64,000 bases of DNA. It comes from Pseudalkalibacillus salsuginis. GTDB lineage: Bacteria; Bacillota; Bacilli; Bacillales; Fictibacillaceae. The notes beneath the pieces are model-generated. The model saw nothing but the letters and a program-made list of their open reading frames with translations. It ran no database searches and was not told the origin of the DNA. This document shows positions 27,941-47,817 of the stretch, piece by piece; the first letter of the stretch is position 1; each line of letters begins with the position of its first letter. A program made the translations under genes and the position numbers. The stretch is taken from positions 868,001 through 932,000 of the forward strand of contig NZ_JAKJHW010000001.1 of assembly GCF_021646685.1 (NCBI RefSeq), written 5' to 3'.

Positions 27941-27966
27941 AAAATGAATGGGTACTCATTCATTTT
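27941..27966. promoter_or_regulatory. TetR-type palindromic operator upstream of the YhgE/Pip gene
   Basis: A 26-bp palindrome with a single central mismatch pair. The half-site is AAAATGAATG and the other half CATTCATTTT, with GTAC in the centre. It resembles the TGAATGA-N-TCATTCA boxes bound by FadR/YsiA-type TetR regulators in Bacillus. It lies 36 bases before the start codon of the YhgE/Pip gene, within the likely promoter. No TetR gene is adjacent. Confidence 0.65.
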
Positions 27967-28001
27967 ATGGAAGCGTTTACTATACTTTTGGAGGTATCGG
28001 G

Positions 28002-30143
28002 ATGAATAGTTTCAAATTACTTTCTGCTGAATTTTCAAAGATTGCTGCCAACAAGGGAATCTTAGTCTCTGTAATCGCTGCTCTGTTGGTTCCTGTCGTT
28101 TATGGCGGGATCCTTCTGTCCGCAACTTGGGGGCCTTATGATAACCTTGATAACTTGCCAGTGGCCGTCGTCAATAATGATCAGGGTGCGATTTCTGAAA
28201 ATGAACCTATCAACGTAGGAAACGAATTAGTAGCGAATATGAAGGAAGGAAAAAACCTGGGCTGGGAATTTGTGAATTCAACCGATGCAATGAGGGGGCT
28301 TCAAAAGAATGAATATTACATGGCGATCATTATCCCTGAGGACTTTTCCCAACGTGTCACCACTGTAATGGAGCCCGATCCGAAGAAGCTTGAACTTGAA
28401 TACATTCAGAATGAAGGGATGAACTTCCTCGCCTCAAAAGTTACAGAAACAGCCACACAGCGTATCCGGGAGCAACTTGCAGATACGATTACGCAAAATT
28501 ACACCTCGAAAGTTTTTACAAGCTTAGAAGACGTTTCTGACGGCTTCGGAAAGGCAGCTGACGGCTCTGCCCGGTTATCCGATGGAACAACCCAGCTGCA
28601 TAACGGGACAGAAAAGCTTTTAAACTCTGTTACATCGAAACAATCAGATATTACCAAACTAGCAAATGGTACACAAGAATTAAAGGACGGGACAAGCCTC
28701 CTATTAAGTAAATTGGAAGAAAAATCTGGGGACATCAACAAGCTCGCGGACGGTTCCCGGGAATTGCACGATGGTACCGTAAAGCTTAAAGATGGAACTG
28801 GACAGATCTTAGTCGGCTTGCAAAAGGCTGAAACTGGTAGTGCAGATCTTAAGAATGGTGTAGCGAATAATCTGGCCCCCGGAGCAAGAGGGGTTGCTGA
28901 TGGTACGGTCCGTCTTAAGGATGGATCTGCTAAATTGGCAGATGGTGCCAATCGATTGCTCGCAGGCTTGAAGGAATTCCGAGAGGCGAACCCATCCACC
29001 ACATTGCCGCCATATAAGGACCCTTACCAACAAATCATCGACGGGGCTCAGAATTTAGCAAATGGTTTGAACAGTTTATCAACGAAATCAGTCGCTTTAA
29101 GTAAAGGTGCAGTAAAAGTTTCAGATGGAATCGATAATAAAATTGTACCTGGTACAGCCCAACTCCATGATGGATTGAATCAACTCGTAGCTGGACAAAA
29201 GAAAGTGGATTCTGGTGCCGCTCAATTGGAAGATGGAGCGAGCAGACTGGCTAATGGGAATGCTCAAGTGGAAAATGGCTGGCAAGAACTCATTACTGGT
29301 GTTTCAAAACTTGATTCAGGTGCTGGACGAATCGCCAAAGGAAATGCGGCTGTTGATGAGGGATGGAAAAAATTATCGACCGGGGCATCTAAGTTGGAAG
29401 ATGGAGCAGGAAGAGTGAACGATGGAAGTGAAGAACTTGCTACAGGTTTGAAGGAAGGTGCTGATAAAACGAGCGGTCTGAATACTGGAGAAAAAAACAT
29501 TGGTATGTTCTCCTCACCGGTCGAACTTGCAAGTGATACGGTCAACGACTATGAATATTACCGTGACTCGACTGCACCATATATCCTGACGCTCGGTTTA
29601 TTTGTCGGAATCCTGATCATGTCCCTGTTCATTAATTTCAAAAGACCAGCTCATGTTTCAAGTATTAGCTGGTTTACAGTCAAGTTCATGAATCTTGCAT
29701 TATTGTCGCTTATCCAAGCCGCTTTATTGCTGATGACCGTGTTTTTCATACTAAAATTGAATGTAACCAATCCACTTGGACTGATTTTGTTCACGATTGT
29801 CGTAAGCATTGTTTTTTCGGCCATCGTACTATTCCTGGCATCGCTTGGCGGTAACATCGGACGTTTTATTGCCCTAGCCCTCGTAATTTTACAATTATCC
29901 ATAACAGGAGCGAATTTACCAATCGAAATGCTCCCAGAGAATCTGAGAACATTAAGCGAATATTTACCGTTCACCTACTCGATTGCGGGCTTCAAATCAG
30001 TCATCACGTTAGGTGACTTTGGAGCAGCATTGGCAAACATGAGCATACTTTTAGCTTATCTTGTCCTCTTTGCCCTGCTATCTCTGACCGTGTTCCTCTT
30101 TATGAAAAAACCGAAACAGCATGATGTTGAAGCTGCAATGTGA
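28002..30143 (+). CDS. YhgE/Pip-family membrane protein
   Basis: 713-aa protein from ATG 28002 (GGAGGTATCGGG before it; the frame opens earlier at 27948 inside the operator). One membrane helix is near the N terminus (ISVI-type segment GILVSVIAALLVPVVYGGIL). A large extracellular part of about 480 residues carries the YhgE/Pip domains with many L..G...L..G repeats (for example GSAKLADGANRLLAGL), and a C-terminal ABC-2-like block of five to six helices closes it. Homologues include phage-infection protein Pip of lactococci and type VII-secretion-linked YhgE/YueB relatives. Substrate or partner is unknown. A terminator follows at 30150. Confidence 0.9.
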   Translation: MNSFKLLSAEFSKIAANKGILVSVIAALLVPVVYGGILLSATWGPYDNLDNLPVAVVNNDQGAISENEPINVGNELVANMKEGKNLGWEFVNSTDAMRGLQKNEYYMAIIIPEDFSQRVTTVMEPDPKKLELEYIQNEGMNFLASKVTETATQRIREQLADTITQNYTSKVFTSLEDVSDGFGKAADGSARLSDGTTQLHNGTEKLLNSVTSKQSDITKLANGTQELKDGTSLLLSKLEEKSGDINKLADGSRELHDGTVKLKDGTGQILVGLQKAETGSADLKNGVANNLAPGARGVADGTVRLKDGSAKLADGANRLLAGLKEFREANPSTTLPPYKDPYQQIIDGAQNLANGLNSLSTKSVALSKGAVKVSDGIDNKIVPGTAQLHDGLNQLVAGQKKVDSGAAQLEDGASRLANGNAQVENGWQELITGVSKLDSGAGRIAKGNAAVDEGWKKLSTGASKLEDGAGRVNDGSEELATGLKEGADKTSGLNTGEKNIGMFSSPVELASDTVNDYEYYRDSTAPYILTLGLFVGILIMSLFINFKRPAHVSSISWFTVKFMNLALLSLIQAALLLMTVFFILKLNVTNPLGLILFTIVVSIVFSAIVLFLASLGGNIGRFIALALVILQLSITGANLPIEMLPENLRTLSEYLPFTYSIAGFKSVITLGDFGAALANMSILLAYLVLFALLSLTVFLFMKKPKQHDVEAAM

Positions 30144-30337: not shown

Positions 30338-30490
30338 CTATTGCTTTGCTTTTTTACTTATTTTTAATAAAGAGCCTGTTAAGTATATGATTTTATTAAA
30401 AATTTCTCTTCGTTTGTCTTCTGGAAGATCTTTTTGGAATTCCTTGATCAAGCCTCTTATCTCTCTTATTAAATCTGCCTCTCTATCCAT
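30338..30490 (-). CDS. 50-aa ORF downstream of the pheromone precursor, unknown
   Basis: Small ORF starting MDREADLIREIRGLIKEF and ending LLKISKKAKQ. A strong ribosome site AGGAGGAG stands five bases before the ATG. It is charged and helix-forming with no membrane segment. Composition (pI basic at the end, acidic at the start) does not match Spo0E-type phosphatases, which carry an SQELD motif absent here. It lies about 200 bases after the repeat precursor gene on the same strand, behind that gene's terminator. No function is recognised; coding is supported by the ribosome site and an uninterrupted frame. Confidence 0.5.
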   Translation of the reverse strand: MDREADLIREIRGLIKEFQKDLPEDKRREIFNKIIYLTGSLLKISKKAKQ

Positions 30491-30625: not shown

Positions 30626-30660
30626 TAAAAAGAAAAAAGTGCCGATTTAAGGCACTTTAG
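30626..30660 (-). terminator. Terminator of the rap-phr-like operon
   Basis: Stem AAAGTGCC/GGCACTTT (30636-30643 with 30651-30658), followed on minus by TTTCTTTTT. It lies 30 bases after the precursor stop codon. Confidence 0.85.
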
Positions 30661-30688: not shown

Positions 30689-31120
30689 TTATACGTCATT
30701 TGGAGGTGAGTCTTTGATGATTCCGTCGTGTGCCAGCAGGTCTACAGAGTCTTTGATGATCCCGTCATGTGCAAGCTTCGCAGGTGAGTCTTTGATGATT
30801 CCATCATGTGCCAGCAGGTCTACAGAGTCTTTGATAATCCCATCATGTGCAAGCTTCGCAGGTGAGTCTTTGATGATTCCATCATGTGCCAGCAGGTCTA
30901 CAGAGTCTTTGATAATCCCGTCATGTGCAAGCTTCGCAGGTGAGTCTTTGATGATTCCATCGTGTGTTAGCAGGTCTACAGAGTCTTTGATAATCCCGTC
31001 ATGTGCAAGCTTTGCAGGTGAATCTTTGATGATCCCATCATGTGCTTCACTTGTGCTGAGGAACATTGGCAAAATAACGACAGACAGTGACAACATCAAC
31101 AAGACAACCACTTTCTTCAT
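30689..31120 (-). CDS. Multi-copy Phr-like secreted peptide-pheromone precursor
   Basis: 143-aa protein: signal peptide of about 25 residues (KK n-region, hydrophobic core, cleavage likely after SEA), then nine tandem 13-residue units. Each contains HDGIIKDS. The linkers alternate strictly: AHDGIIKDSPAKL in units 1, 3, 5, 7 (T instead of A in unit 3) and AHDGIIKDSVDLL in units 2, 4, 6, 8; unit 9 ends SPPNDV. The Shine-Dalgarno TAAGGAGG overlaps the stop codon of the Rap-like gene 15 bases upstream, so translation is coupled. Normal Phr precursors are 40-60 aa with one or two pheromone copies. Secretion, trimming by an extracellular protease and re-import through Opp are inferred from the Phr family. 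The mature sequence may be DGIIKD or a close variant. Confidence 0.8.
   Translation of the reverse strand: MKKVVVLLMLSLSVVILPMFLSTSEAHDGIIKDSPAKLAHDGIIKDSVDLLTHDGIIKDSPAKLAHDGIIKDSVDLLAHDGIIKDSPAKLAHDGIIKDSVDLLAHDGIIKDSPAKLAHDGIIKDSVDLLAHDGIIKDSPPNDV
30707..31045 (-). repeat. Coding tandem repeat, 39-bp units in 78-bp pairs
   Basis: Nine 39-bp units encode HDGIIKDS plus linker. They are arranged as near-identical 78-bp pairs differing by only a few, mostly silent, bases (for example GATGATTCC/GATAATCCC on plus). Such similarity indicates recent expansion or homogenisation of a two-unit block. Because 39 is a multiple of three, the opposite strand is open too. Confidence 0.95.
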
Positions 31121-31134
31121 CCAAAAAATCCTCC

Positions 31135-32226
31135 TTAGCTTAATTTGTTTTTGGCGTGGATGACCAGTTTGTAATACTTCATGGCCTCTTTGATGTTTCT
31201 CTCTTGTTCATAATATTTCGCCAATTCATGACTGAATTCCTCTAAATTTCCCCAATATTTTTTGTCGAGATACGAAGAAATTTCTTCCCTTAGGACACAC
31301 ATGTAATCCTGCAGGTTTAATGTATGTTTTGCTTTTAGGATATTCAACTTCCCAAGATATTCAGAATCCTTGGTGTGTCCGCAAATATCATAGCATCGGT
31401 TTACCCAGTACATTGCATTTTCATTTTGTTGAAGTCTGAAATACTCGTTTGCCATTATGTACATGGTTTTTACTTGGTATTGATATTCATCATTTTCCAC
31501 CATCCATGTAAGGCTTTTTTCAAGATACTCGATTGCTTTAGTCGATTCCCCCTTTCTTGAGTACATCCAACCAAGGTTTTGCAAGGACACAGATTCAGTT
31601 TCTAAACATTTTACAAGTTGAGCATACTTTATTGCCTTATTCAAATAATATTCTGCGCGATCATAGTTCCCAAGGAGGATATGATTGGTTCCTAGTAGAT
31701 TTTTACAATCGGCGGTGCGTAAATGATAATGTTCGTCTGTTTGAAAAATTTCTATAGCCTTGAATGTATGTTGGATCGAATTTAGAATATCAAGGTGCTG
31801 AGAGTAAACGGATGCTAATTTATAGTGGAATTCTGCCGTCTCAATGGGGTCGGGAATAGAGGTCAGCCTTTTTTCAGCATAATGGAAGTGGGTCAGTGCG
31901 TCTTCATACTTCTTTTGTCTGTATAGATAGATACCTTTAAAAAATTGATAGTAATACTCAAGCATATCATCCATCTCATTTTTGTCTTGATTAATTTCAA
32001 GCATGAGTAGATCTGCATCCTCTATTGTTTTGGAATGGATCAGATTGTACCGGAAAGTTAAGAGTGAATAATAGAGAAGCAGATTCTGATTTTCCTCCAT
32101 ATGGTTTATCTTCTCATCGATCTCTTCCTTTAATTTCAAAGCTTTTTCGACATTACGATCACGAATCATTACGTACCAGGAATTCAAAAGGTTAGTCATC
32201 TCACTTGAACTTACCATGACTTTCAT
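31135..32226 (-). CDS. Rap-family TPR regulator (aspartyl-phosphate phosphatase type)
   Basis: 363-aa protein of the Rap family. Residues 10-70 form the N-terminal three-helix bundle with the Rap signature (LLNSWYVMIRDRN; HMEENQNLLLYYSLLTFRYN). Gln-47, with Glu-45 before it, is at the same number as the RapH residue that attacks the Spo0F aspartyl phosphate, so phosphatase activity is plausible. Residues about 95-355 hold TPR repeats (for example YDRAEYYLNKAIKYAQ and STKAIEYLEKSLTWM) that bind Phr peptides in known members. The start ATG 32226 lies after AAAGGAG. The precursor gene is coupled directly behind it. Likely target: a response regulator such as Spo0F or ComA (inference). Confidence 0.88.
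   Translation of the reverse strand: MKVMVSSSEMTNLLNSWYVMIRDRNVEKALKLKEEIDEKINHMEENQNLLLYYSLLTFRYNLIHSKTIEDADLLMLEINQDKNEMDDMLEYYYQFFKGIYLYRQKKYEDALTHFHYAEKRLTSIPDPIETAEFHYKLASVYSQHLDILNSIQHTFKAIEIFQTDEHYHLRTADCKNLLGTNHILLGNYDRAEYYLNKAIKYAQLVKCLETESVSLQNLGWMYSRKGESTKAIEYLEKSLTWMVENDEYQYQVKTMYIMANEYFRLQQNENAMYWVNRCYDICGHTKDSEYLGKLNILKAKHTLNLQDYMCVLREEISSYLDKKYWGNLEEFSHELAKYYEQERNIKEAMKYYKLVIHAKNKLS
31216..31243 (-). promoter_or_regulatory. Sigma-H-like promoter within the 3' end of the rap gene
   Basis: AGAGGAATT (31235-31243) and GGCGAAA (31216-31222) are separated by 12 bp. They match the Sigma-H consensus RNAGGAWWW-N11-12-RNNGAAT except for the last base. It lies about 100 bases before the precursor start, where several B. 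subtilis phr genes have Sigma-H promoters. Confidence 0.5.
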
Positions 32227-32265
32227 TTTAATTATTCATCTCCTTTAAATAATACGAATGACGTC

Positions 32266-32294
32266 TATTTACACAGTTTTTCGACTTTCTTCAA
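32266..32294 (-). promoter_or_regulatory. Candidate Sigma-A promoter of the rap-like gene
   Basis: -35 TTGAAG (32289-32294) and -10 TAAATA (32266-32271) with a 17-bp spacer, 40 bases before the start codon. No ComA box (TTGCGG-N4-CCGCAA) is visible. Confidence 0.45.
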
Positions 32295-32479
32295 TAAAAA
32301 CCTTTCTATTATCAATAGATAGTCCATTTACACTATGAATGAAGAAAAGTGGCAAAAAAGCACTACATTAGGGAAATTGAATATTTGGCGAACGTTGAAA
32401 AAAGACCCTTACTTTAAGTATCGCCTTGAATTTTGCTTAAATTGGGGTCAATTTTATAATAATTTTTTTCAGTACAATC

Positions 32480-32587
32480 CAGATAGCGAGTAGGACGACG
32501 ACTAATCCTTTTTTCGTAATATATCAAAGTATGTTCGCTACGCTAAAACCTATTATTTTCTGCTATCTCACCTATGCAATACACCAT
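32480..32587 (-). pseudogene. Remnant of a MerR-family regulator gene
   Basis: Minus strand: GAGGTGTAAGG, then ATG at 32587 and MVYCIGEIAENNRF followed by TAG (32543-32545). The frame then continues RSEHTLIYYEKK, a further one-base shift and GL. This matches the start of MerR regulators (IGEIAE...SEHTLRYYEKKGL). The gene is broken by a stop and a frameshift, and the rest is lost. Its MerR-type promoter upstream is intact. Confidence 0.7.
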
Positions 32588-32657
32588 CCTTACACCTCAC
32601 TTTTATGCTTACTTCTTCCCTTCGAACAATAAACTTCTTTGTCTGCTTGCATAAAAA

Positions 32658-32688
32658 ACCATACCACTTAGCGTTAACTCTAAGTCAA
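32658..32688 (-). promoter_or_regulatory. MerR-type promoter, 19-bp spacer with palindrome
   Basis: -35 TTGACT (32683-32688) and -10 TATGGT (32658-32663) with exactly 19 bp between. The dyad at 32666-32685 has arms ACTTAG/CTAAGT around GTTAAC and one mismatch pair. It resembles AdhR-like MerR sites. It faces the MerR remnant at 32587. Confidence 0.7.
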
Positions 32689-32762
32689 GCGTAGAAAACT
32701 GTTGTAGTAATATGAATATAATCTGTACCAACAAAAAAAGCCCTTCATATCAAGGACTTGTT

Positions 32763-32818
32763 GTAATCTGTTATGGTGGAGCATAGCGGGCTCGAACCGC
32801 TGACCTCTTCGCTGCCAG
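32763..32818 (-). repeat. attachment-site direct repeat (tRNA-Ala 3' fragment)
   Basis: 56 bases identical to 47818-47873, containing the 3' half of tRNA-Ala from the anticodon arm through CCA. Similarity continues imperfectly about 50 bases further down to 32710, including the A-run/AGCCCTT...ATCAAGGACTTGT region. The tRNA 5' half is absent. It marks the left end of the integrated element. Confidence 0.92.
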
Positions 32819-32912
32819 AGATGGACATATCTTTTGATTATAACAGAATCGGTTTGAAAACGTTGATTTTATAGACTTTAAATTAAAGAGCTTTTGATAA
32901 TGTAGGATTGGA

Positions 32913-32922
32913 TTGGGGACGA
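32913..32922 (+). repeat. End-proximal motif TTGGGGACGA, left
   Basis: It occurs in inverted orientation at 47739-47748 near the other end of the element. Further GTCCCCA copies lie beside both. Possible arm-type integrase or excisionase sites. Confidence 0.4.
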
Positions 32923-33030
32923 CAAGGTTAAGTTAGTCCCCAATTGGTTCCCAATTCTGAATCAATTTTAGTGAAATTAGAACGAATATTATAGGTAAAT
33001 GGCAAGAATATTCTTTCTTATTTAACACTT

Positions 33031-34527
33031 TTAGTTTAACTGTTCTTTAAGCACTTCCTTTAATAATTCAATTGAGCTTTCCTCTGTTTGATCGTTTGTT
33101 CCAAGTTCACCGCAGTAAGCTTTAGACAAAACAGAGCTTTTAATATAATCACACTTCTCAAAAACATTTATGGTTTCTTCACTTTTAAGTTCTCTATCTA
33201 ATAATTTTTTCACGATTTGCTTAATTATATTTTGTTCTTGTAATGGTGGCAATGGGACTTTCAATCCCTCTATTCTAAATAGAGCCAATTTAGGTTGACT
33301 AGTTGAGACAACGGCTTTTTTAATTTGGTCCTGGACAATGCGACTATTTAACAAATACAATAAAAAATGCTTGTCAGTTCCATCAATATCGGTTATTTTT
33401 GCAGCATTTTCAGTTAGATTGGCACCACTAATTTCTTTAGGAATATCACCAATCTTTCCAATAGTTCCTGCAATAGAAATATATAAATCATCGGAAGTAA
33501 TGATATATCTGGATATTTTACTTGCTGTTTCTTCAGTTATATACTTTATACCTGAAATATCTACCGAATAATCCCTAAAGTCTGTAACACGAACATAAGG
33601 ATTAGAGGTTTGATGATCAACAAGGTTATGACCTTTAGGTAATCTTTTCCCCCCTTTAATTGAGGCAATTTCACCTAGGCATACCCACTTCCAACCTTTC
33701 GGTAACACAAAAGGTTCATCGATTACTGGCTCTAATTTTTTTCCTTTTTTCTTTTTGCCATCAGTTTTACTTTGTTTTTCTTTAACTTTTTTTAATAAAG
33801 TAGTTGCAGTCTCTTCATTAGGATTTTCTTCTCTCCACCATGCAGTCAACTCCCCCCGATAAGCTTTATCCAGAATAGCTGCTCGACGAAGTTCAAACGT
33901 TTCCTTTGCTTCATCAATCAACTGCTTTGCTTCATCAATTTTATTTATAAGGCGTTCAACTTTATCAGCAATTCGTATTTGTTCATTTAAGGGAGCTAAA
34001 GGTATTTTTATGTTTTTACACCGTGAGCCAGAAATTTCTTTAAAAGTACTTCCACTTGCCATCGATTCAAGATACGCTTTTGAATTTTTTAAATACCAAT
34101 ATAAATACCGGGGGTATATTGCATTCGTTGGTAAGAAACTTTTAAATCCTTGATTTGTTGATAACTCTTTCGCAGCTATAACAACATAACCTATTGGTGC
34201 CCTAGACGATAACAAAACAGTATTAATTTGTAAAAGTTTTGCAGAACTCTTTTCGAGCCCTAATTTAGTGATATTCCTTTTGCCTCTTTCTATAAACATA
34301 TTTTTATATCCAGATAAATCAGCGGGTGTAATCCAAGGAACAGTTCCATTTTCATAATATTCAATTACTTTTGATTTTGGGGTCCCTCCGCCAACCACAT
34401 TTGTTAAAGAACCTAAATTAGTCCAAATCCAATTTTTTGGCACATTATAAGGTTGTTCTTCTTCAGGAATAACTGCTTCCTCTAATAATTCCTCAATTGA
34501 ATTTTGCTTTTTTACTTTCTTAGTCAT
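33031..34527 (-). CDS. hsdS: Type I restriction-modification specificity subunit HsdS
   Basis: 498-aa specificity subunit from ATG 34527, which overlaps the hsdM stop by eight bases (the frame opens earlier at 34596). It has the expected duplicated layout. Target-recognition domain 1 starts PKNWIWTNLGSL and is followed by the conserved helix region PLAPLNEQIRIADKVERLINKIDEAK. Target-recognition domain 2 starts PKGWKWVCLGEIASIKGG and is followed by PLPPLQEQNIIKQIVKKLLD. A lysine-rich linker (KTDGKKKKGKK) separates the halves. It directs both methylation and cleavage with HsdM and HsdR. The recognition sequence is bipartite but cannot be predicted here. Confidence 0.95.
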   Translation of the reverse strand: MTKKVKKQNSIEELLEEAVIPEEEQPYNVPKNWIWTNLGSLTNVVGGGTPKSKVIEYYENGTVPWITPADLSGYKNMFIERGKRNITKLGLEKSSAKLLQINTVLLSSRAPIGYVVIAAKELSTNQGFKSFLPTNAIYPRYLYWYLKNSKAYLESMASGSTFKEISGSRCKNIKIPLAPLNEQIRIADKVERLINKIDEAKQLIDEAKETFELRRAAILDKAYRGELTAWWREENPNEETATTLLKKVKEKQSKTDGKKKKGKKLEPVIDEPFVLPKGWKWVCLGEIASIKGGKRLPKGHNLVDHQTSNPYVRVTDFRDYSVDISGIKYITEETASKISRYIITSDDLYISIAGTIGKIGDIPKEISGANLTENAAKITDIDGTDKHFLLYLLNSRIVQDQIKKAVVSTSQPKLALFRIEGLKVPLPPLQEQNIIKQIVKKLLDRELKSEETINVFEKCDYIKSSVLSKAYCGELGTNDQTEESSIELLKEVLKEQLN

Positions 34528-36004
34528 TGCCACCCACCTCAACAGTTTCAGCAACCTTATCAATGCTATAGGTGGTATTCTCATAGCTGATTCCATTTTC
34601 TACTTTTCTCAACTCTATTGCTACTTCACTCAATAACTCAACAGCTTGTTCTAGTTTTGCTATTGCTTCTTCGGCAGAATCAATTGGATCAGGAAGATTT
34701 TCATATACAGATAGTGAATCATCTGCAACCAAACCAATATCTAAGCTGTTATCTTTTTTCTTAATTTCCTCACGCGTAAATACATTAAAGCGTTCATCTT
34801 TTATGTTCGCTCGGTCCTCTGCTTTATAAGCTTTTACAAATCCTTTAAAGTGCTTTTCGGTTAATCGATTTCTTTTACCAAAGCTCGGCATGTTTGTTCG
34901 TAAATCGTATACCCACACATTTTTCGTGCTGTTCTTGTCACTTGTTTCTCGGGTAAAAAATAAAACATTCGTCTTTACACCTTGTGCATAGAAAATACCT
35001 GTTGGTAAACGTAATATCGTATGTAAATTACATTTGTCCATTAGGTCTTCACGGATTTTTGTACCTATCCCACTTTCAAAAAGCACGTTATCAGGTAAGA
35101 CAACTGCAGCACGTGCTTTACCATCTGGTTTCAATGCACGGTAGATATGCTGAAGGAAGTTTAACTGCTTGTTAGTTGTTGCAAACGTCAAGTCGTCACG
35201 TGTCGGACGTTCTCCTCCTTGCTTCGTCCCAAATGGAGGATTGGTCATAATTACATCAAAGTTCTTAAGGTCTTTTCCAAGCTCTGATAAAGTGTCCCCA
35301 ATTATAATCTCACCCTGGATGTCATGAAGCATTGCATTCATCAAAGCTAAACGATGTGTGTCTTTTACAAGCTCCACACCAGTAAATGCTTTATATTTTT
35401 GAAATTCCGATTCTTTTTCTCCTAGATCGAAATAGTCATCTGTTTGCTCACGGACGTGGCGGTCAGCTGCAATCATAAAACCAAATGTACCAGCTGCTGG
35501 GTCATTGCATCGTTCACTAGGTTTTGGATCGGTTAATTTTACAATAACATCGATTAAGGTACGAGGAGTAAAATACTGTCCCGCTCCGGATTTCGTTTCA
35601 CTCGCATTCTTTTCGAGTAAGCCCTCGTATAAGTCACCAAGTCCTTCTTCTTTCGCACTGTACCAATCCAGCTCATCAATGGAGCGGATGATTTTTTCCA
35701 GGTTTTTCGGTTCATCAATATTTGTTTTTGCGTTTGTATAAATCTGACTTAAAATAGTATTGCTTTCCTGACCAAGGTCAATAAGCAATTTTTGATAATG
35801 GGTTTTTAACTTAAGCCCATGAAGTTTCGTTAGTGAATCCCAACGATATTCTTCTGGTATGGATTCCTCATTGTCTGTTTCTTTCATCATCTTTAAAAAT
35901 AAAAGATAAGTTAACTCTGTAACGTATTGATGATAGGTGATCCCATCATCCCGTAAAACATTACATAAATTCCATAGCTTCTGTACAATCTGTTGGTTGC
36001 CCAT
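34520..36004 (-). CDS. hsdM: Type I restriction-modification methyltransferase HsdM
   Basis: 494-aa N6-adenine methyltransferase subunit. The N-terminal helical HsdM domain (MGNQQIVQKLWNLCNVLRDD) is followed by AdoMet motif I DPAAGTFGF (about residue 170) and catalytic motif IV NPPF (about residue 255). AKSGAGQYFTPRTLIDV-like sequence (TKSGAGQYFTPR) precedes motif I as usual. It starts two bases after the hsdR stop with AAGGAGC upstream. All key residues are present. Confidence 0.96.
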   Translation of the reverse strand: MGNQQIVQKLWNLCNVLRDDGITYHQYVTELTYLLFLKMMKETDNEESIPEEYRWDSLTKLHGLKLKTHYQKLLIDLGQESNTILSQIYTNAKTNIDEPKNLEKIIRSIDELDWYSAKEEGLGDLYEGLLEKNASETKSGAGQYFTPRTLIDVIVKLTDPKPSERCNDPAAGTFGFMIAADRHVREQTDDYFDLGEKESEFQKYKAFTGVELVKDTHRLALMNAMLHDIQGEIIIGDTLSELGKDLKNFDVIMTNPPFGTKQGGERPTRDDLTFATTNKQLNFLQHIYRALKPDGKARAAVVLPDNVLFESGIGTKIREDLMDKCNLHTILRLPTGIFYAQGVKTNVLFFTRETSDKNSTKNVWVYDLRTNMPSFGKRNRLTEKHFKGFVKAYKAEDRANIKDERFNVFTREEIKKKDNSLDIGLVADDSLSVYENLPDPIDSAEEAIAKLEQAVELLSEVAIELRKVENGISYENTTYSIDKVAETVEVGGND

Positions 36005-36006
36005 TC

Positions 36007-39000
36007 TTATGCTTGCTCCTTTTCATCCTTAACATATAATGCATAGTTGATTTTACTAACGATATCGTCCAGTTGTCCACCAAATATTTTGTTTAGTTGT
36101 TTATACCCACCACGACTCTTGAATGGTTCTACATTAAATGCCTTTTCTGGATCAGGGTCCAATACCGATTCTTTCAGCAATTGTTTTTCGATTCGTTCCA
36201 ACCAGGCCTTCTGGACTTTTGGCCAGGGTTTCATTGAATAGATTTTTTTCATAGCCTTTTTAATCCGCTCTTCATGGTCGATCAAAGGATCACCAAGTGC
36301 TTGTTGGCGGATGAAGCTGATGATGTCAGCTGCTATATCTTCATTTTTCGCATCTCTCCATGCGGTCTGGAGGCTTTTTTCGGTAAATCCTTTTTGGTCT
36401 AATGCGATTCTTAATTCTCTTAATTGTTCTCTTGTCAATTCTTTCGGACGTGTACAGACAACCTGGAGTGCAGGAATCAGGTTCATATTTTCTTTTATGA
36501 ACTGATCGAAGCTTTGCAAATAATCCTCCGGCTTTTCTGCGTTACCATAACCGCGGGTAACTTCTTTAACCTCATCCTCATGAGTTGAGATGTACTGGAG
36601 GACAGGTCTTCCTCTATTCTCATCTAGATATTGGAGAATGTTTTGATTGGTAGTCAGTTTATCAACTACTTCTTCTGGTTTTGATTGTTTTATCCATTCA
36701 ACAAACTCATTGATTGTTTTACCGCCTGATAGTACCTTGAAATCTTCATGGTCTTTGTCAGTCCAGCGTTGTTTTTTACGTTGGACTTTCGCAATAAGTT
36801 CTTCCTTGTGCTGTGTTTTTTGTTCTGTGTTTTGAATCTGCTCCAGTTCCTCTACTAATTGATGAACGGTTACTTTTGGTCTTTTTACAACAGGTTTCAT
36901 TTTTGAATATGGTTCTAATGATTCGTAGAGTCCCACAGCATCATAGATAGAGAAATGATCTTTTCCAATAACATCGGACCTTCGGGTTGCGCGTCCAAGC
37001 ATTTGTTCATATAAAATACGAGAGCGCACACGTCTTAAGAAAACAAGGTTAGAGATGGTCGGAACATCAATGCCAGTCGTCAACAAATCAACTGTAACTA
37101 CGATATTCGGTAGCCGCTCATTTTTAAAAAGGCGGATTGCCTGCGATGGGTCCTTTATTGAACCAGTGATTTTCATTACAGTATTATCATTGATTGGACC
37201 ATGAATTTCTTCTAATTCTTTTTTAAAAATACGAACAACCATATCTGCATGATCATCTGTTGCAGCAAATATCAATGTTTTACCCGCACTGGCAGGATCA
37301 ATGTAATTTGCCAATTCAGATAAGATTGCTTTGTTGAAGTTTTCAGTGATAACCATCTTATTAAACTGGGTTACTTCAATGTTGACCTCATCTTCCAGTA
37401 ACTCTGTTTCAATTTCACCAGTACGAGTGTTGTAGACTTGTACAGTTTCACCAGCAGACCACTGGATTCCATGTTTCTTTAAGGTTGTTTCGAATTGGTA
37501 AGGTGGCTCATGGTCAATTAAATAGCCATCTACTACCGCTTCACGGTAAGAATAATTAAAGACAGGCTTTCCGAAAATTTCAGCAGTGTGTAAAGCAGGT
37601 GTAGCTGTCAGTCCAATACGAACTGCATCAAAGTAATCCAGTACTTGACGATATTTACTTACATAATCGGCATGATCACGGAAAAGCTCTTCAACATCCG
37701 ACATTTCCTTATCGAGCGTATATCCCCGGTGTGCTTCATCCACTATAATGCAATCATACTGATCTACTGTTGGGGGTTCTTGCTCTGTGTCTGTATCTGA
37801 ATAAAAGAGCCTTTTTAACATACCTTGAACTGTAGCGATGTGCACCTTAGTTTCAGGATTGGGCTTTACATCTTGTAATGTCTGAAGTTCGAAGATTTCT
37901 GTAAACGAATGATAGCTTTCCAACTTTGAATCTTTGAACGCCGCCTCAGCCTGTTCTCCTAGAGCAGTTCTGTCAACTAAAAAGAGGATCCGGTTAAACC
38001 GATTATGTTTAATAAGACGATAGATCAGTCCAATCGCCATTCTTGTTTTACCTGTGCCAGTGGCCATTGCAATCAATATCTCTCTTTGTTCTCTTTCAAG
38101 AGTATTCTCAACAGCCTTAATTGCCTCTTCTTGATAGGGACGTAAATTTAGATAATCCAATGTTTCATCTTGAAGCTTTTTGTTTGCTTGATCGATGTCT
38201 TTCTTTAGTAATTCTTTTATCCCTTGCGGTGAATACCAAGCTTTCAAGGGACGGGGATGATTTGTTGGTTTTCTGGCATCTAAAAACCATATCCCAGATT
38301 TCTCTTCAAATTGCTTTACATATGGACGACCATTTGTCGCAAACAAAAAAGGGACAAAGTAATCGCCATATGGAGTTTGGATTTCTTCTTCATCATGTTT
38401 TACTACCAATCTAGCATAACCTTTTGCTTGCTCTATGTCAGAAATGATGTTTTTACTAGCCCGTTTCGCTTCAATGATTCCTACAAATTCTAGACCAATA
38501 AACAAAGCATAGTCAGCATATCCCTTTTTTAAAGGCCATTCTGCTATCGCAAGGTCCTTTCCTTTTTTAGGTCGAACTCCTTTACCGTATCTAAGTTTTT
38601 CAGTATCCGCTTCCCATCCTGCTTTTCTTAGTTGTTCATCAATAAGGATGCGGGTCTCTTCTTCTGTCAGCTTAAAACGGCTACCTAAAGATTTCGCGCC
38701 TTTTTTACGCTGTAATTTATCAGTAGATGAAACATATGCCTGTTCCTGTCTTAATTTTTCAAGTTGACTTTCAAGTTGTGCAACTTTGTCTTCATATGAC
38801 CTAGATAACTTCTTAAGTTCTTCTTCATCTATTGTTTGCTTTTGGACGGGTTCTTGGAACTCTGGTTCCTTAAAGTCCCAATCTCCATATACCTGCATCA
38901 ACCAGACAGATAACCGAAAGGCCATATGTAATAAAGCGTGGGCTTCCTGTTCCGTCCCATATCCAGCTTCATGGACTGCCTTATTTCCTTTCCTTCGTAT

Positions 39001-39258
39001 CGTATCCAGCATGGTATATAATTCTTCGGTTATTAGATCATCTCTTCTAAGTACACTTAAACGATCAACCTGGTTTGTATCATATGTTTCCTTTATTTCC
39101 TCATAAGCTAAGACGTATTTGGTCAATGTCTCAGCAAAGAGTCGAAGTTTTATTAAAGTAGTGTTGGGATCAATATATAAATTTCGTTCAGCAGTTTCGC
39201 CTAAATTGGTTAATAGACTCCAATGGTCATCAAGAAAGTAAAAGTTACTGTCTTTCAA
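36007..39258 (-). CDS. hsdR: Type I restriction endonuclease subunit HsdR (EcoEI-like)
   Basis: About 1083-aa motor and nuclease subunit. The N-terminal DUF4145-like domain (residues about 10-130) is followed by a coiled segment, then a nuclease domain with the ExK core FVGIIEAKRAS. The SF2 helicase follows (ATGTGKTRMAIGLIYRL, IIVDEAH, LTATPA, TTGIDVPTISNLVFLR, QMLGRATR) and a C-terminal HsdR_C region. An ATG at 39273 has no ribosome site. The GGGGGTGA just inside it fits TTG at 39258 better. It is the first gene of an hsdRMS operon, inside a mobile element. No frameshift is seen, so the system appears complete. Confidence 0.94.
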   Translation of the reverse strand: MKDSNFYFLDDHWSLLTNLGETAERNLYIDPNTTLIKLRLFAETLTKYVLAYEEIKETYDTNQVDRLSVLRRDDLITEELYTMLDTIRRKGNKAVHEAGYGTEQEAHALLHMAFRLSVWLMQVYGDWDFKEPEFQEPVQKQTIDEEELKKLSRSYEDKVAQLESQLEKLRQEQAYVSSTDKLQRKKGAKSLGSRFKLTEEETRILIDEQLRKAGWEADTEKLRYGKGVRPKKGKDLAIAEWPLKKGYADYALFIGLEFVGIIEAKRASKNIISDIEQAKGYARLVVKHDEEEIQTPYGDYFVPFLFATNGRPYVKQFEEKSGIWFLDARKPTNHPRPLKAWYSPQGIKELLKKDIDQANKKLQDETLDYLNLRPYQEEAIKAVENTLEREQREILIAMATGTGKTRMAIGLIYRLIKHNRFNRILFLVDRTALGEQAEAAFKDSKLESYHSFTEIFELQTLQDVKPNPETKVHIATVQGMLKRLFYSDTDTEQEPPTVDQYDCIIVDEAHRGYTLDKEMSDVEELFRDHADYVSKYRQVLDYFDAVRIGLTATPALHTAEIFGKPVFNYSYREAVVDGYLIDHEPPYQFETTLKKHGIQWSAGETVQVYNTRTGEIETELLEDEVNIEVTQFNKMVITENFNKAILSELANYIDPASAGKTLIFAATDDHADMVVRIFKKELEEIHGPINDNTVMKITGSIKDPSQAIRLFKNERLPNIVVTVDLLTTGIDVPTISNLVFLRRVRSRILYEQMLGRATRRSDVIGKDHFSIYDAVGLYESLEPYSKMKPVVKRPKVTVHQLVEELEQIQNTEQKTQHKEELIAKVQRKKQRWTDKDHEDFKVLSGGKTINEFVEWIKQSKPEEVVDKLTTNQNILQYLDENRGRPVLQYISTHEDEVKEVTRGYGNAEKPEDYLQSFDQFIKENMNLIPALQVVCTRPKELTREQLRELRIALDQKGFTEKSLQTAWRDAKNEDIAADIISFIRQQALGDPLIDHEERIKKAMKKIYSMKPWPKVQKAWLERIEKQLLKESVLDPDPEKAFNVEPFKSRGGYKQLNKIFGGQLDDIVSKINYALYVKDEKEQA

Positions 39259-39354
39259 CAAGCTCACCCCCATAAAAGAGAACCTAACTTTTATTTACAA
39301 TTCCATTGTAACAAACTTTAGAGCCTACTTAACTCCATCTTAAAAATTATTCCA

Positions 39355-39387
39355 TAAAAAAACTGGTACTATTATAAGTACCAGCTT
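39355..39387 (-). terminator. Terminator between the TerS-like gene and hsdR
   Basis: CTGGTACT (39363-39370) with AGTACCAG (39377-39384), followed on minus by seven T. It isolates the RM cargo from the satellite replication module. Confidence 0.88.
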
Positions 39388-39421
39388 CCTTTATAACATA
39401 TTGGTCGATTTTGGTAGTGTT

Positions 39422-39844
39422 TTAGTTCGCTTTCCAACGTTCCACCGTAGTCATATTCAACATATCATCAAGACTTTCGTCTGTACCTTTCTCCCTTTGG
39501 AAAACAGGTTCTACTTCCTCCTGTTTAAGAGTGTGCATATATTTCAGGAATATCTCACATAATTTTTCTGTTGGAACGTTAGAAAAATCACGTTGACTAA
39601 GCTCCTCTTGCAACTTTTTTGTCTGCTCTCCGATAGTTTCAATCCGATTCTTCTTTGCAATAAAGTATTGCTCTTGTAAAGCCTCCATTTCCATGGTTTT
39701 CAGATTGGCCACTTCATACTCAAACTCTTTAGACCAATCGATCAGGGTAGATTTAGCAACATTCAATTGCTTTGCAATCTTATCAAAGCTGATCCCAGCA
39801 GCTCTCAATTCAATGAATTTTTGCTTAGTTTTATTGTCTTTCAT
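39422..39844 (-). CDS. TerS-like helix-turn-helix protein (phage terminase small-subunit type)
   Basis: 140-aa protein from ATG 39844 (AAGGATG upstream). The N-terminal HTH is of the kind found in phage terminase small subunits (FIELRAAGISFDKIAKQLN, then VAKSTLIDWSKEF), followed by a long helix (EALQEQYFIAKKNRIETIGEQ) and an acidic tail. In satellites a TerS homologue redirects packaging of helper phage to the element. No large subunit is present. It could instead be a plain DNA-binding regulator; the resemblance is by pattern, not by a specific residue. Confidence 0.65.
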   Translation of the reverse strand: MKDNKTKQKFIELRAAGISFDKIAKQLNVAKSTLIDWSKEFEYEVANLKTMEMEALQEQYFIAKKNRIETIGEQTKKLQEELSQRDFSNVPTEKLCEIFLKYMHTLKQEEVEPVFQREKGTDESLDDMLNMTTVERWKAN

Positions 39845-39888
39845 ATAATCATCCTTCTTAGATATCATAATCACCAACAAACTCTTTT

Positions 39889-40100
39889 TACCCACATTAC
39901 CCACGATTCGATGCAATTACTTAGAATACTTGGTTTTGCTATGTGGTCCCCCTTGTTAGTACATATTCCACATTACCCACATTTAAATGACCATAAAGCT
40001 TTTGTTAATGTGGGTAATTGTGGGTTGTGTGTTTAGGATTGACCCACAATAGCTACCTTTAACTGTCAGGTTTTATAAATTAATGTGGGCAAAGTGGGTC
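39889..40100. other. Candidate iteron replication origin of the element
   Basis: Eight copies of TGTGGGT/ACCCACA or one-mismatch variants lie in 212 bases. Minus orientation: 39890-39896, 39899-39905 (ACCCACG), 39975-39981, 40042-40048. Plus orientation: 40009-40015, 40019-40025, 40084-40090 (TGTGGGC), 40093-40099 (AGTGGGT). Three pairs are spaced 9-10 bases apart, about one helix turn. AT-rich stretches lie between. The region sits just downstream of the DUF3987 gene and upstream of the TerS-like gene, where SaPI origins are found relative to rep. No gene covers it. Confidence 0.6.
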
Positions 40101-40112
40101 TTTCAAAAGACT

Positions 40113-41639
40113 TTACGATAAGAAATACGGGTTAACCTGATAAACCTTTTTTCTACCCTCCTTTTTCCGAATGTAACCACGATCCTCTAAATCAAATAAT
40201 GTATTTTTCAAATGTTCTGCTCTATAAAACCGTTTTCTTGTGAGCATTTGTATTTCTCTATACTCAATTACGGATTTTTGCTTTTTTTTAATGACATTCA
40301 ACAAATATTTAACGTCTTCTGTTCTTCTATCAGCCTTCATACAATCATAAGCAGCTTTGGCATGTTCTATAAAATATTTTGTAAGCTGCCGTGCTCTAGA
40401 AAAAGTCAGCTCGTTAATCTGTGGTGATATTTCTTCAATTTTCGTATTACTAAAAGGTAATTCGTTTGCGTAATCAGCTACATGTAATAAACCTGCAACT
40501 CGTATGATCTGACCCGCCAACTTACTTCCCCACTCCTTCATCTCTGCCAAATCACCCCCTTCCAAGAACATACTTTCCACATCTTCCCTCAACGTTTCCT
40601 CTAACCTTCGTGCGTTTTCATCAAGTGTAAGCTGGATAGGATCAGGTACTTCAAAACTTAATAAATTCCTAATCGTTGTAGAATAAGCATTTTTCACTTC
40701 TTCCTTTATTGACTCTGGTCTTATTTTACGGTTTCCGACCAGTGATTTAGGAAAAGAATATAGAAACCTAGGCATCAACCCCCTTTCTTGAAAACTAGGT
40801 GGAGTATCCTGCACAACGTGGGGCTGTACAAATAGTCCAATAGTCAGAGCAGGATTTCGTAAAACCTTAGCAGCCCTCCCTATCCGATCAACTGCACAAT
40901 AGTCCCCGCTGAAGCCTTTTAAAAATATTTCAATATTCGCTTTTCCATCGGAAGAATATCGTCCAGCCATAATACTGAAAATCCCGCCTCCTTCTGCCGA
41001 TAAAATAGCCATTTTTTCATTATTTTCAGCTAATAAATCCGCAAGTTTTTCCGGCGTTACATCTTCTGTTATATAACGTGGTATAGTGAGTAACTTTTCT
41101 TCTTGTATTTCGTTGGTTAAATCCTTAATTTCCTTTAATGTTGCTTCTTCCCCATTTTTTGCATACTCTTTTTCATGTCGCTCTAATCGTTTTCGTTTTG
41201 CTTTTAATATTGCTTTTTGTTTAGAGACTTTCAGACCCAACCGCTCTCTTTCTTGTTGTTCAAAAATTGTTATCGGCTCTTGCAAAGCTTTGAACACAGC
41301 ACTTTTACGATTACCCGAAGGGAGTGATATAATAGAATATGTGTTCAAAGATTCACTCCATTCTCCTGATAACTTTACGTAGAATTTTTTCATCAAGGTT
41401 GTTGATAAAACAGATATTGTTGCCATACCAGCTGCATCTATGGGAGTTTGTGTAGACTCAGCCACCCCTTTGACATAATCCCGCAACCAAACAGGGAACA
41501 CATGTACGGGAAAGACAGGTAGTTCATATTCATCTATAGGAACAGGCTTTACCCATTGTACTCCCTCCTGCTTCATCTCTGATTTTTTCCCTTCTTTCAA
41601 AGATTCATATTCAGCCATTTGTTGGATGTTTATCCCCAT
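40113..41639 (-). CDS. DUF3987-family (primase-helicase-like) replication protein
   Basis: 508-aa protein of the DUF3987 family (YfjI-like), common in satellites and integrative elements as a replication helicase or primase partner. An ATP-binding-type loop is seen in IISLPSGNRKSAVFKALQ (residues about 100-117), where the P-loop is degenerate (GNRKS instead of GKT/S). A charged coil (KAILKAKRKRLERHEKEYAK) follows. The C-terminal about 70 residues form a winged-helix-like end (REIQMLTRKRFYRAEHLKN). It overlaps the prim-pol stop by 29 bases. It probably acts at the iteron region directly downstream. Confidence 0.8.
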   Translation of the reverse strand: MGINIQQMAEYESLKEGKKSEMKQEGVQWVKPVPIDEYELPVFPVHVFPVWLRDYVKGVAESTQTPIDAAGMATISVLSTTLMKKFYVKLSGEWSESLNTYSIISLPSGNRKSAVFKALQEPITIFEQQERERLGLKVSKQKAILKAKRKRLERHEKEYAKNGEEATLKEIKDLTNEIQEEKLLTIPRYITEDVTPEKLADLLAENNEKMAILSAEGGGIFSIMAGRYSSDGKANIEIFLKGFSGDYCAVDRIGRAAKVLRNPALTIGLFVQPHVVQDTPPSFQERGLMPRFLYSFPKSLVGNRKIRPESIKEEVKNAYSTTIRNLLSFEVPDPIQLTLDENARRLEETLREDVESMFLEGGDLAEMKEWGSKLAGQIIRVAGLLHVADYANELPFSNTKIEEISPQINELTFSRARQLTKYFIEHAKAAYDCMKADRRTEDVKYLLNVIKKKQKSVIEYREIQMLTRKRFYRAEHLKNTLFDLEDRGYIRKKEGRKKVYQVNPYFLS

Positions 41640-42459
41640 TCATTCCCCTCCCTTTCAATCGTTCTATCTCGCGTTTTAGAATACTATTAAACGTAGTCTC
41701 CATTACTTTCTGTGACTCTGGAGGGGTATTCCGTTCGTTCCATAAGAGCATTATTTCATATGCTACAGGAGCGGCTATACCATGTCTTAATAAATAACCG
41801 GCAAGAGAGGCTGCAGACATGTTACGATTTCCCTCAGGAACACCTTTAAGAATTTCTATCCAATAGCTTGCAGGTTTCTTTATCTTCTTCTCCTGCTGTG
41901 GATCTCCTATTAGTCGGAATAACCATTCCGGTATATTTGCTAGTGGACTTTTATCTGGACGACTTGATACTTCCCATTTATAACGCTGACCACTAATATG
42001 AACAGAAGGAGATACTACAATATAACCACCATCCCCTCTGATATCGATACCTGGTAAAATGCCAACCTTATTTTTAATTCGCCTATAAGGAGATGTTTTA
42101 AATAGAATATGTCGACCATCGCCGCCTGTAAGTGCTTCAACTGTTTGAGGAAGTCTGCCGTGTTCTACCATCAGATTGTGGAATGAGTCATCTCCTCCAT
42201 TACGAGGATCTATATCTAAAGCAATAACTCCACTTATACTACCAGTTGGGATGCCGATATTCGCCTGAGGCCATTTCTTCCACCATTGATTGATCAAATG
42301 TAGATCTCTTGTTGCTGCATGAACCCCTTTTGCTATAAGTGGGTGCTTCCCTTCACTGCCACATTGTCTCCCACAAGTGCAATTATCAAATGAAATACCG
42401 TGTAAAGGAATCACTGGCCAGCCTAAACTTTGAGTGTAGGCTATGGCTGATATATGCAT
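41611..42459 (-). CDS. Bifunctional primase-polymerase (prim-pol) protein
   Basis: 282-aa AEP-type primase with N-terminal prim-pol domain. Visible are WPVIPLHG, a zinc-like CTCGRQCG insertion with GKHPLI, IGIPTGSISGVIALDIDPRNGG (catalytic DxD), GGDGRHILFKT (His) and VVSPSVH. A primase-C-like tail (NRNMSAASLAGYLLRHG) follows. The ATG at 42459 has no ribosome site. A strong AAGGAGGGTG stands about 30 bases upstream, where in-frame ATT (42477) or ATA (42480) would be at the right distance, so an unusual start is possible. It forms a replication module with the DUF3987 protein. Confidence 0.85.
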   Translation of the reverse strand: MHISAIAYTQSLGWPVIPLHGISFDNCTCGRQCGSEGKHPLIAKGVHAATRDLHLINQWWKKWPQANIGIPTGSISGVIALDIDPRNGGDDSFHNLMVEHGRLPQTVEALTGGDGRHILFKTSPYRRIKNKVGILPGIDIRGDGGYIVVSPSVHISGQRYKWEVSSRPDKSPLANIPEWLFRLIGDPQQEKKIKKPASYWIEILKGVPEGNRNMSAASLAGYLLRHGIAAPVAYEIMLLWNERNTPPESQKVMETTFNSILKREIERLKGRGMNGDKHPTNG

Positions 42460-42501
42460 TTCTGAATAAGAAGAAATTATTGGTACACCCTCCTTCCATG
42501 G

Positions 42502-42690
42502 TTAATTACCTTTTTCATTTTTGTACTCCTGATCACTTATCCAATCATCAATTGAATGACGATCAAATATCAGTACTCTTTTGCTTAATCGAACATGGGG
42601 AATTTCTTTCTCACGTACCAACTGGTAAACCAAATCCTTAGACACACCTAGATACTCCGCAACTTCTGCAACTCTCATTTTTATACGCAA
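42502..42690 (-). CDS. xis: Excisionase-family (HTH_17) DNA-binding protein
   Basis: 62-aa protein with the MerR-like winged HTH of excisionases (VAEVAEYLGVSKDLVYQLVR, then EKEIPHVRLSKRVLIFDRHS). TTG start at 42690 with GGGAGAGG upstream; its codon directly follows the stop of the preceding HTH gene. A small protein at this place in an element with a tyrosine integrase is expected to steer excision. It may also act as an activator. Confidence 0.85.
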   Translation of the reverse strand: MRIKMRVAEVAEYLGVSKDLVYQLVREKEIPHVRLSKRVLIFDRHSIDDWISDQEYKNEKGN

Positions 42691-42879
42691 TTAGACCTCT
42701 CCCTTAGGATCATTTTTCAAATTATCGATGATATTATGGATTTCTTTTTTCTTTTCGATAGATAATTCCTTACGCAACAACCTGCTGAAATTGCCCTCAT
42801 GTATCCCAACTGCTTCCGCTACTTGCCAGTGTTTTAATCCTGCCTTACTTATTGCCTCTCTGAGATCTTCATTCTTCAA
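42691..42879 (-). CDS. Small Cro/C1-type HTH regulator
   Basis: 62-aa protein with one helix-turn-helix (GLKHWQVAEAVGIHEGNFSRLLRKEL) and a short charged tail. TTG start with AGGAGG upstream. It is the first gene of the leftward module and is divergent from the 319-aa zinc-ribbon/integrase pair across a 133-base region full of ATCRTTAAA half-sites. It is the best candidate for binding that array, like Stl/Str-type regulators of SaPIs. Confidence 0.75.
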   Translation of the reverse strand: MKNEDLREAISKAGLKHWQVAEAVGIHEGNFSRLLRKELSIEKKKEIHNIIDNLKNDPKGEV

Positions 42880-42898
42880 TATCTATCCTCCTGTTGAT

Positions 42899-42979
42899 TT
42901 TAATGATGTTGTTGATATATACTTAAATTATCATTAAATTTAACGATATTTAAGATATTTATAGCTTTATATCGTTAAA
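42899..42979. promoter_or_regulatory. Operator array of four ATCRTTAAA half-sites
   Basis: ATCATTAAA or ATCGTTAAA occurs at 42899-42907 (minus), 42930-42938 (plus), 42939-42947 (minus) and 42971-42979 (plus). The middle two abut as an 18-bp near-palindrome. The outer two lie 22 and 23 bases away, giving a symmetric layout. It fills the divergent promoter region of the element and is the likely lysogeny-type switch. Confidence 0.7.
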
Positions 42980-43012
42980 TTACGTTAATTTTTATTTTTT
43001 GGAGGGATTATA

Positions 43013-43972: not shown

Positions 43973-43973
43973 T

Positions 43974-45152: not shown

Positions 45153-45206
45153 AAAAAAGTTTAAAGATTGATGTTATTTTTCAGTGTTTACCCATAACAT
45201 ACCGTA

Positions 45207-45242
45207 AAAAAGGAATCTATTTTCATAGGTTCCTTTTTTTGT
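45207..45242 (+). terminator. Terminator after the integrase gene
   Basis: Stem AAAGGAATCTAT (45209-45220) with ATAGGTTCCTTT (45225-45236), T run after. Confidence 0.85.
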
Positions 45243-45257
45243 GAATAAATGATTAAA

Positions 45258-46265: not shown

Positions 46266-46267
46266 AC

Positions 46268-47032: not shown

Positions 47033-47038
47033 CCCACT

Positions 47039-47560: not shown

Positions 47561-47738
47561 CCAACATATCACCTCTCTTTAGTTTGTTTTCTAAATTTTT
47601 CTTATTAAGAATATCATTATATATATTTATAAACAATTATTTTAATTACATTTATTCAAATAATTGTTAATTTTATTTATATCACCAAATTTTATAAACG
47701 TTCTTCACTTATTAAAATAATTAAATATTGTCCCCAGA

Positions 47739-47748
47739 TCGTCCCCAA
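47739..47748 (-). repeat. End-proximal motif TTGGGGACGA, right
   Basis: Inverted relative to 32913-32922; next to another GTCCCCA at 47730-47736. Possible integrase arm sites. Confidence 0.4.
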
Positions 47749-47817
47749 CAACCCTGTTATAATAAATTTGATTAAAAACTGTACCAATAAAAAAAGCCCT
47801 TTTATCAAGGACTTGTA

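Follow-up and report, generated by a model that had tools for sequence, protein, structure and literature searches.

The question raised by this locus is what is encoded together by a receptor gene and, 14 bp behind it, a gene for a precursor holding nine copies of one octapeptide. In the window, by which we mean the whole 64,000-nucleotide stretch of DNA that was analysed, the two genes lie in the order rap-phr, the receptor belongs to the Rap family and the repeats share a conserved core. The reading that we favour, with a probability of about 0.72, is a Rap-Phr quorum-sensing cassette with a nine-copy Phr polyprotein that would be processed to Rap-inhibiting peptides. The features of the cassette are the following.

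31135-32226, minus strand: rap, a 363-residue Rap-family receptor (RapH_N and TPR, no HTH), assigned by profile, PDB, fold and alignment.
32086-32088, 31675-31677 and 31576-31578, minus strand: the rap codons for Gln47, Leu184 and Asn217, respectively, placed by alignment to RapF.
31130-31134, minus strand: Shine-Dalgarno sequence of phr, GGAGG, directly behind the rap stop, read from the sequence.
30689-31120, minus strand: phr, a 143-residue precursor made of a hydrophobic 26-residue signal peptide and nine tandem units, read from the sequence.
31043-31120, minus strand: signal peptide of phr, residues 1-26, whose S-E-A end abuts the first HDGIIKDS; read from the sequence, with a predicted cleavage site.
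30692-31042, minus strand: array of phr, nine 13-residue units of HDGIIKDS plus linker, arranged as (A-B)x4 and then a terminal PPNDV.
30636-30658, minus strand: terminator-like hairpin 3' of phr, a weak match in a pattern scan.

The original prediction had placed a Rap with Gln-47 upstream of a secreted-type precursor with nine copies of HDGIIKDS, and this holds: both reading frames are on the minus strand, residue 47 of the receptor is Gln, and the nine copies are spaced by exactly 13 residues. The rap stop codon does meet the Shine-Dalgarno sequence of phr, as had been claimed, in that the TAA at 31135-31137 runs straight into GGAGG, with the phr ATG at 31120. The two alternating linkers, SPAKLA and SVDLLA, are also read in the array, with a final T in place of A in one of the eight; the last HDGIIKDS copy is followed by PPNDV. 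Cleavage after S-E-A is predicted on the basis of the -3/-1 rule for signal peptidase sites. When the array was analysed by TRF, it resolved as a tandem period of 78 bp (4.4 copies, 95% matches, score 614) and a period of 39 bp with 70% matches. An artefact or a chance array was rejected, since two other assemblies, L003 and L005, also carry nine copies and, when the mature region of the precursor was shuffled 500 times, the copy count stayed at four or below. An antisense reading frame at 30714-31163 was not accepted as a gene, since antisense frames of the same length arose in 85 of 2000 random recodings. A pattern scan of 30689-33000 revealed no sigma-H-like site, and the whole window gave 27 such matches against a mean of 19.9 in shuffles; terminator-like sites, of which the scan yielded 2 where shuffles averaged 1.8, are no commoner than in shuffles.

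The Rap identity of the receptor was confirmed by profile search, in which it matched RapH_N (PF18801) at 9.7e-23 together with several TPR families, and no HTH family was among its Pfam matches. Its best sequence match in the PDB was RapI (1e-39), with Rap3T, RapF, RapH and RapJ also close. An AlphaFold2 model built from a nine-sequence alignment (mean pLDDT 92.4, pTM 0.87) was compared with known structures by fold search, and again the matches were Raps: the TM score was 0.84-0.88 for peptide-bound RapJ, Rap3T and RapF, 0.76-0.78 for Rap105 with peptide, 0.65-0.68 for the pLS20 Rap with or without peptide, its peptide-bound form scoring 0.66-0.68, 0.65 for free RapF, 0.62-0.67 for free RapI, and 0.62-0.63 for the RapH-Spo0F and RapF-ComA complexes. 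The closed state of this predicted model is no proof of a ligand. At the RapH-Spo0F interface, Glu45, Gln47, Leu50 and Phe58 are kept and Asp46 is replaced by Asn. Gln or Glu at Rap position 47 is required for Spo0F dephosphorylation, and in RapF, a Rap that does not act on Spo0F, position 50 is His (PMC3035606). The host genome contains a Spo0F match of 76% identity, and its best ComA match, at 31%, is one among several similar regulators. Judged from these sequences, Spo0F is the likelier target of the receptor; because ComA-like regulators exist, it is not the sole possible one. One further relative of the receptor, the NprR-type L002, is present in the same genome. Position 47 is variable in Raps more widely. 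The Rap of P. decolorationis (L005; also L128), a member of the HDGIIK clade described below, has Glu there, and RapH-Q47E is reported to be active (PMC3035606). Across 77 aligned Raps the residue is other than Gln in 32 (Pro in 13, Ser in 6, Glu in 4, His in 3, other residues in the rest), and Spo0F dephosphorylation may thus be absent from many of them.

A Phr pheromone is usually C-terminal and has Arg or Lys at position 2, but this is not universal; likewise, Asp at position 194 that binds Arg-2 is typical of B. subtilis Raps and not of every Rap. The anchors of the peptide in RapF have been named (PMC3601957). When the window receptor was aligned with RapF, Asn227, which holds the peptide backbone, was conserved as Asn217, and Asp194, the binder of Phr Arg-2, corresponded to Leu184; Tyr152, Gln183, Arg223 and Gln263 differ, Asp338 is replaced by Glu, and Tyr66 has no place in the pairwise alignment. 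With several of the anchors not conserved, the binding mode and the frame of the peptide are uncertain. The window peptide has His, not Arg or Lys, at the place matching Phr position 2, and given this Leu184/His pairing it must bind in some way other than the Arg-2/Asp194 salt bridge. The same relation is seen across the 77 aligned Raps, 33 with Asp at place 194 and 44 without it. For the Asp194 Raps that have a candidate precursor, Arg or Lys stands at the matching place in 17 of 19 by eye (the exceptions are L140 and L156); for the non-Asp194 Raps, His stands there in 34 of 37, again by eye (the exceptions are L159 and also L059 and L061, whose single-copy 'precursors' look spurious by eye). 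All 11 Leu194 Raps have His, namely the six of the HDGIIK clade, three with EHGET or GHGET and two of AHHGG type. On the strength of these alignments, the position-194 pairing ties the repeated peptide to the window receptor; it is a pattern among related Raps, not a test. The mature peptide may start at the His or one residue earlier.

Six Raps, including that of the window, form the HDGIIK clade in a quick tree (SH-aLRT 100), and in 6/6 of them the array or precursor lies behind the Rap. The window, L003 and L005 have nine HDGIIK copies, L004 has three, and L006 and L010 have one each; the one-copy precursors, of 49 and 51 residues, are of ordinary Phr size. We compared substitutions in the eight codons of the core with those in the five codons of the linkers. 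Summed over pairs of the eight non-terminal units, which are not independent within an array, the core in the window shows 75 synonymous and 0 nonsynonymous differences, and the linkers show pS 0.35 and pN 0.33. The L003 array gives 112 synonymous and 0 nonsynonymous differences in the core and pS 0.60 and pN 0.43 in the linkers, and the one pair available in L004 gives 5 and 0 in the core and pS = pN = 0.67 in the linkers. When the window is set against L003 unit by unit, the core has 14 synonymous and 0 nonsynonymous differences and the linkers have 12 and 11. By these codon counts, the core is under purifying selection and the linkers much less so. In the L005 units, HDGIIK is kept, P replaces D and the eighth place is variable (15 nonsynonymous differences), which favours a core of seven residues.

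The junctions of the precursors bear on how copies could be released. In 6/6 precursors of the HDGIIK clade, the first core follows the Ala of a signal-peptidase-like site, and at the internal junctions of the clade residue -1 is Ala in 23 of 26, Thr in two and Val in one. Ala at -1 is not universal: it is found in 26 of 50 junctions across ten multi-copy Rap precursors, and in 56 of 69 junctions of 17 NprR-type arrays with unrelated signals. These counts cover the precursors for which a core pattern was written, that is, 12 of Rap type, including 10 of the 12 multi-copy ones found, together with 17 of the 27 multi-copy precursors of NprR type. Because no copy in the window is C-terminal, every copy needs a C-terminal cut; the one-copy relatives of the clade also have tails behind the core, and such a cut seems to be needed whatever the copy number. 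Since the one-copy relatives seem to need both a cut before the core and trimming behind it, amplification would be cheap. The host genome has 14 subtilase-family genes. For Phr105, with the spacer LKLA, B. subtilis supernatant cuts on both sides, WprA is needed behind the inner copy, and the protease requirement differs between the inner and the terminal copy (PMC11343458). How multi-copy precursors are processed has been called a mystery (PMC9765709), and the junction of hydrophobic residue, Ala and core is a concrete lead on it. The pairing of charge between Rap position 194 and peptide position 2 is a further lead.

Published work on relatives supplies the steps of export, two-sided cutting, re-import and Rap inhibition; the exact peptide, the target and the effect of copy number are our inference. 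Rap and the precursor are encoded together, and Sec would export the precursor. Signal peptidase would cut after SEA and so free the N-terminus of the first copy, and extracellular proteases would act both at the linker ends, after the hydrophobic residue and Ala or Thr, and on the C-terminal side of the conserved core. As many as nine peptides would be released in this way, each about seven residues long: putatively HDGIIKD, with HDGIIKDS or AHDGIIKD possible. An oligopeptide permease would take the peptide back and the peptide would occupy the TPR groove of Rap, which in its peptide-bound form would stop taking phosphate from Spo0F. With nine signals per translation event in place of one, Rap would be turned off at lower cell density or expression. 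A raised dose of signal per precursor in the window system is plausible.

Repeated Phr-like reading frames were found beside Raps in related genomes. For this survey, loci came from a protein search in the genus and from the PF18801 profile in other genomes, and each receptor was classed by which of three references it resembled most, the window Rap, the L009 Rap or an NprR-type protein. Copies were counted as 5-mers with one mismatch allowed, a counter under which shuffled precursors reach at least three copies in 55 of 4450 trials. The 8 genomes of the host genus, Pseudalkalibacillus, have 13 Rap loci, 13/13 with a precursor and 9/13 with at least three copies. In the 26 genomes of sister genera, 27 of 35 Rap loci have a candidate, of which one has at least three copies and one has two. 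A class sample of another 100 genomes contains 29 Rap-type loci, most of them from two genomes; 15 have a candidate, of which two have at least three copies and one has two. With kinship ignored, the Fisher p for precursors with at least three copies is 2.3e-5 for the genus against sister genera and 0.006 against the class sample. The multi-copy state changes at least six times on the Rap tree, from which L169 is excluded. Among loci with a candidate, NprR-type receptors have multi-copy precursors (3-9) in 8/8 in the genus (10 loci) and in 19/24 in sister genera (32 loci); those of the genus are L002 (in the window's own genome, C4), L012, L014 and L016-L020. That all multi-copy receptors of the genus are Raps was rejected, because L016 and L018, with xDxxP signals, have HTH_3. 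Among these xDxxP-type receptors, the best match of L016 is NprR, and the remaining ones are classed by similarity. The Rap precursor of L066, from a sister genus, exceeds the window with ten QHGEVF copies in 13-residue units, the last copy being C-terminal. Among 299 class-level genomes, the window array itself was found in that of the window alone. Outside this genome, 38 of 39 class-level places were taken, one with an internal stop being dropped; this is a narrow sample, with 25 of the 38 from two genomes of one genus and two of the 38 without a receptor.

The neighbourhood of the cassette differs among its relatives. Of 14 window genes tested, L003 has all six that lie downstream of the cassette, L004 has a 50-aa reading frame only, and L005, L006 and L010 have none within 18-19 kb besides rap (and phr in L005), so the cassette sits at different places in different species. 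The 50-aa frame (30338-30490, minus strand), about 200 bp behind phr and without a Pfam match, has counterparts of 67-71% identity next to the cassette in both L003 and L004. Ten of 34 family genomes match it at E<=0.001; identity is 40-47% in the more distant matches, and several are interrupted by stops. An integrated element of about 15 kb (32763-47873) stands at the 3' end of tRNA-Ala(ggc) and stops just upstream of rap, with rap-phr lying just outside it. It is bounded by exact 56-bp direct repeats (32763-32818 and 47818-47873) and carries a tyrosine integrase (43851-45152), Prim-Pol/PriCT, DUF3987 and a type I restriction-modification system (33031-39273). On the other side, a 731-aa ABC2-type membrane protein (27948-30143, plus strand) has a long internal stretch of short repeated motifs. 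A phage or plasmid home for the window Rap was not supported: hits came from 30 phage and 254 plasmid records, none of them reaching 60% identity, and viral contigs contained no exact match to the signal pattern. Plasmid matches to the precursor were set aside as being mostly from Providencia plasmids, and MXKDX repeat proteins where annotated; a Priestia stretch, L184, was rejected as a relative of the precursor, being a charged repeat without a Rap match.

The order of the linkers leads to the history of the array, against which other accounts of the repeats have to be weighed. In mean differences of 39, the first unit of L004 is nearest to A (A 8.3, end 9.5, B 16.5), the second to B (B 11.4, end 13.0, A 13.6) and the third to the end unit (end 9.5, A 10.8). 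Thus L004 has the order A-B-end where the window and L003 have (A-B)x4-end, which indicates, as the simplest history, that the window array grew from a three-copy ancestor by amplification of a 78-bp unit pair; the A-B alternation and the odd copy numbers are explained by this. L005, with nine copies and a single linker family, probably reached nine independently. The original prediction that two linkers could give two processed forms or two protease sites is not supported here, as both linkers end in a hydrophobic residue and Ala (once Thr) and their alternation is probably history rather than a sign of two products. The related proposal that the alternation is functional, with different proteases or two processed forms serving two conditions or receptors, can point to the persistence of both classes in the window, L003 and L004, and to the different proteases used by the inner and terminal copies of Phr105 (PMC11343458). 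We nevertheless regard it as improbable, in that A and B units have identical cores, L005 has nine copies without a second linker family, copying of the 78-bp pair accounts for the order, and within the window the A linkers show 0 and the B linkers 3 nonsynonymous pairwise differences, as recent copying predicts.

If the array is read as a pheromone precursor, its copy number may or may not matter. One possibility, which we put forward tentatively, is that copy number in Pseudalkalibacillus is an evolvable threshold dial, in which cheap gain or loss of units would reset the silencing of Rap and leave specificity untouched; its repeated use is suggested by the span of 1-9 copies in one clade, HDGIIK, with nine apparently reached by two routes. 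A rival account, less likely than not, gives the copies no role in dosage: slippage or unequal crossing-over would add and remove 39/78-bp units, active peptide would come from some of the copies only, and the core would be kept because wrong copies interfere. The variation from one to nine copies in one clade at constant signal, the array history of pair amplification and the changes of the multi-copy state on the Rap tree are all consistent with such drift. Neutral drift alone, however, does not predict multi-copy precursors in 9/13 in the genus against 1/27 in sister genera, and nine copies with 0 core replacements in both the window and L003 also argue against it. It could further be supposed that the repeat protein is a secreted structural, binding or bacteriocin-like protein that lies beside Rap by chance, as the precursor matches annotated repeat proteins and no profile names it. 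The plasmid matches, however, are matches of repeat composition, and the Priestia one has no adjacent Rap; moreover, the same place behind Rap is occupied in 6/6 clade members, including the one-copy 49- and 51-aa precursors, which makes a non-pheromone role highly improbable. The Rap-Phr cassette thus stays the preferred reading. Related receptors accompanied by almost the same signal in 1, 3 or 9 copies make up a natural series in which the idea of 'more copies, more signal', raised in papers of 2016-2024, is testable.

How does this cassette compare with known systems? Fungal alpha-factor precursors hold tandem identical pheromones with processing spacers between them; they share no common descent with the window phr and use other export and proteases, so the likeness is an analogy only. 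The prediction of a fungal-style multi-copy precursor therefore stands as to the Rap family, the adjacent precursor and the conserved core, but the analogy is not new: autoinducer repeats within phr genes, some identical and some varied, have been reported and compared with fungal pheromone genes (PMC5199041). Nor are Phr copies limited to 'one, rarely two', as had been taken for known, since up to six are published, with repeats in 5/311 large Rap and 17/17 large NprR precursors (PMC9765709), and up to eight are mentioned in a study that tested a two-copy precursor (PMC11343458). In one published detector, propeptides are taken to be 10-100 aa long (PMC10075063), and the 143-aa window precursor is therefore outside its range. 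In the open-licence literature, we found no account of the window system or of a nine-copy Phr/RRNPP pheromone, and searches there on Rap-Phr with tandem repeats, Pseudalkalibacillus quorum sensing and Fictibacillus Rap-Phr gave no account of the system. Rap105-Phr105 of Bacillus phage phi105 resembles the window in its Rap with identical pheromone copies, both released by extracellular proteases, and its LKLA resembles KLA/LLA (PMC11343458). It differs in having two copies, one of them C-terminal, of ERPVGT with Arg-2, whereas the window has nine, none C-terminal, and no Arg-2. The multi-copy Phr precursors of Bacilli likewise carry identical copies in one phr, up to six or eight (PMC5199041, PMC9765709), and the window is set apart from them by nine copies, another genus, a fixed 13-residue spacing and a visible pair-wise amplification. 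NprR-NprX shares the combination of a TPR receptor with a repeated secreted precursor and is common in the host family, but NprR has an N-terminal HTH (HTH_3 in L016 and L018) and the window Rap has none. Repeats as such are not new, and the window cassette is a high-copy addition to the known multi-copy kind of Phr; its novelty lies in the natural series of copy numbers, the readable history of the array and the genus-wide habit.
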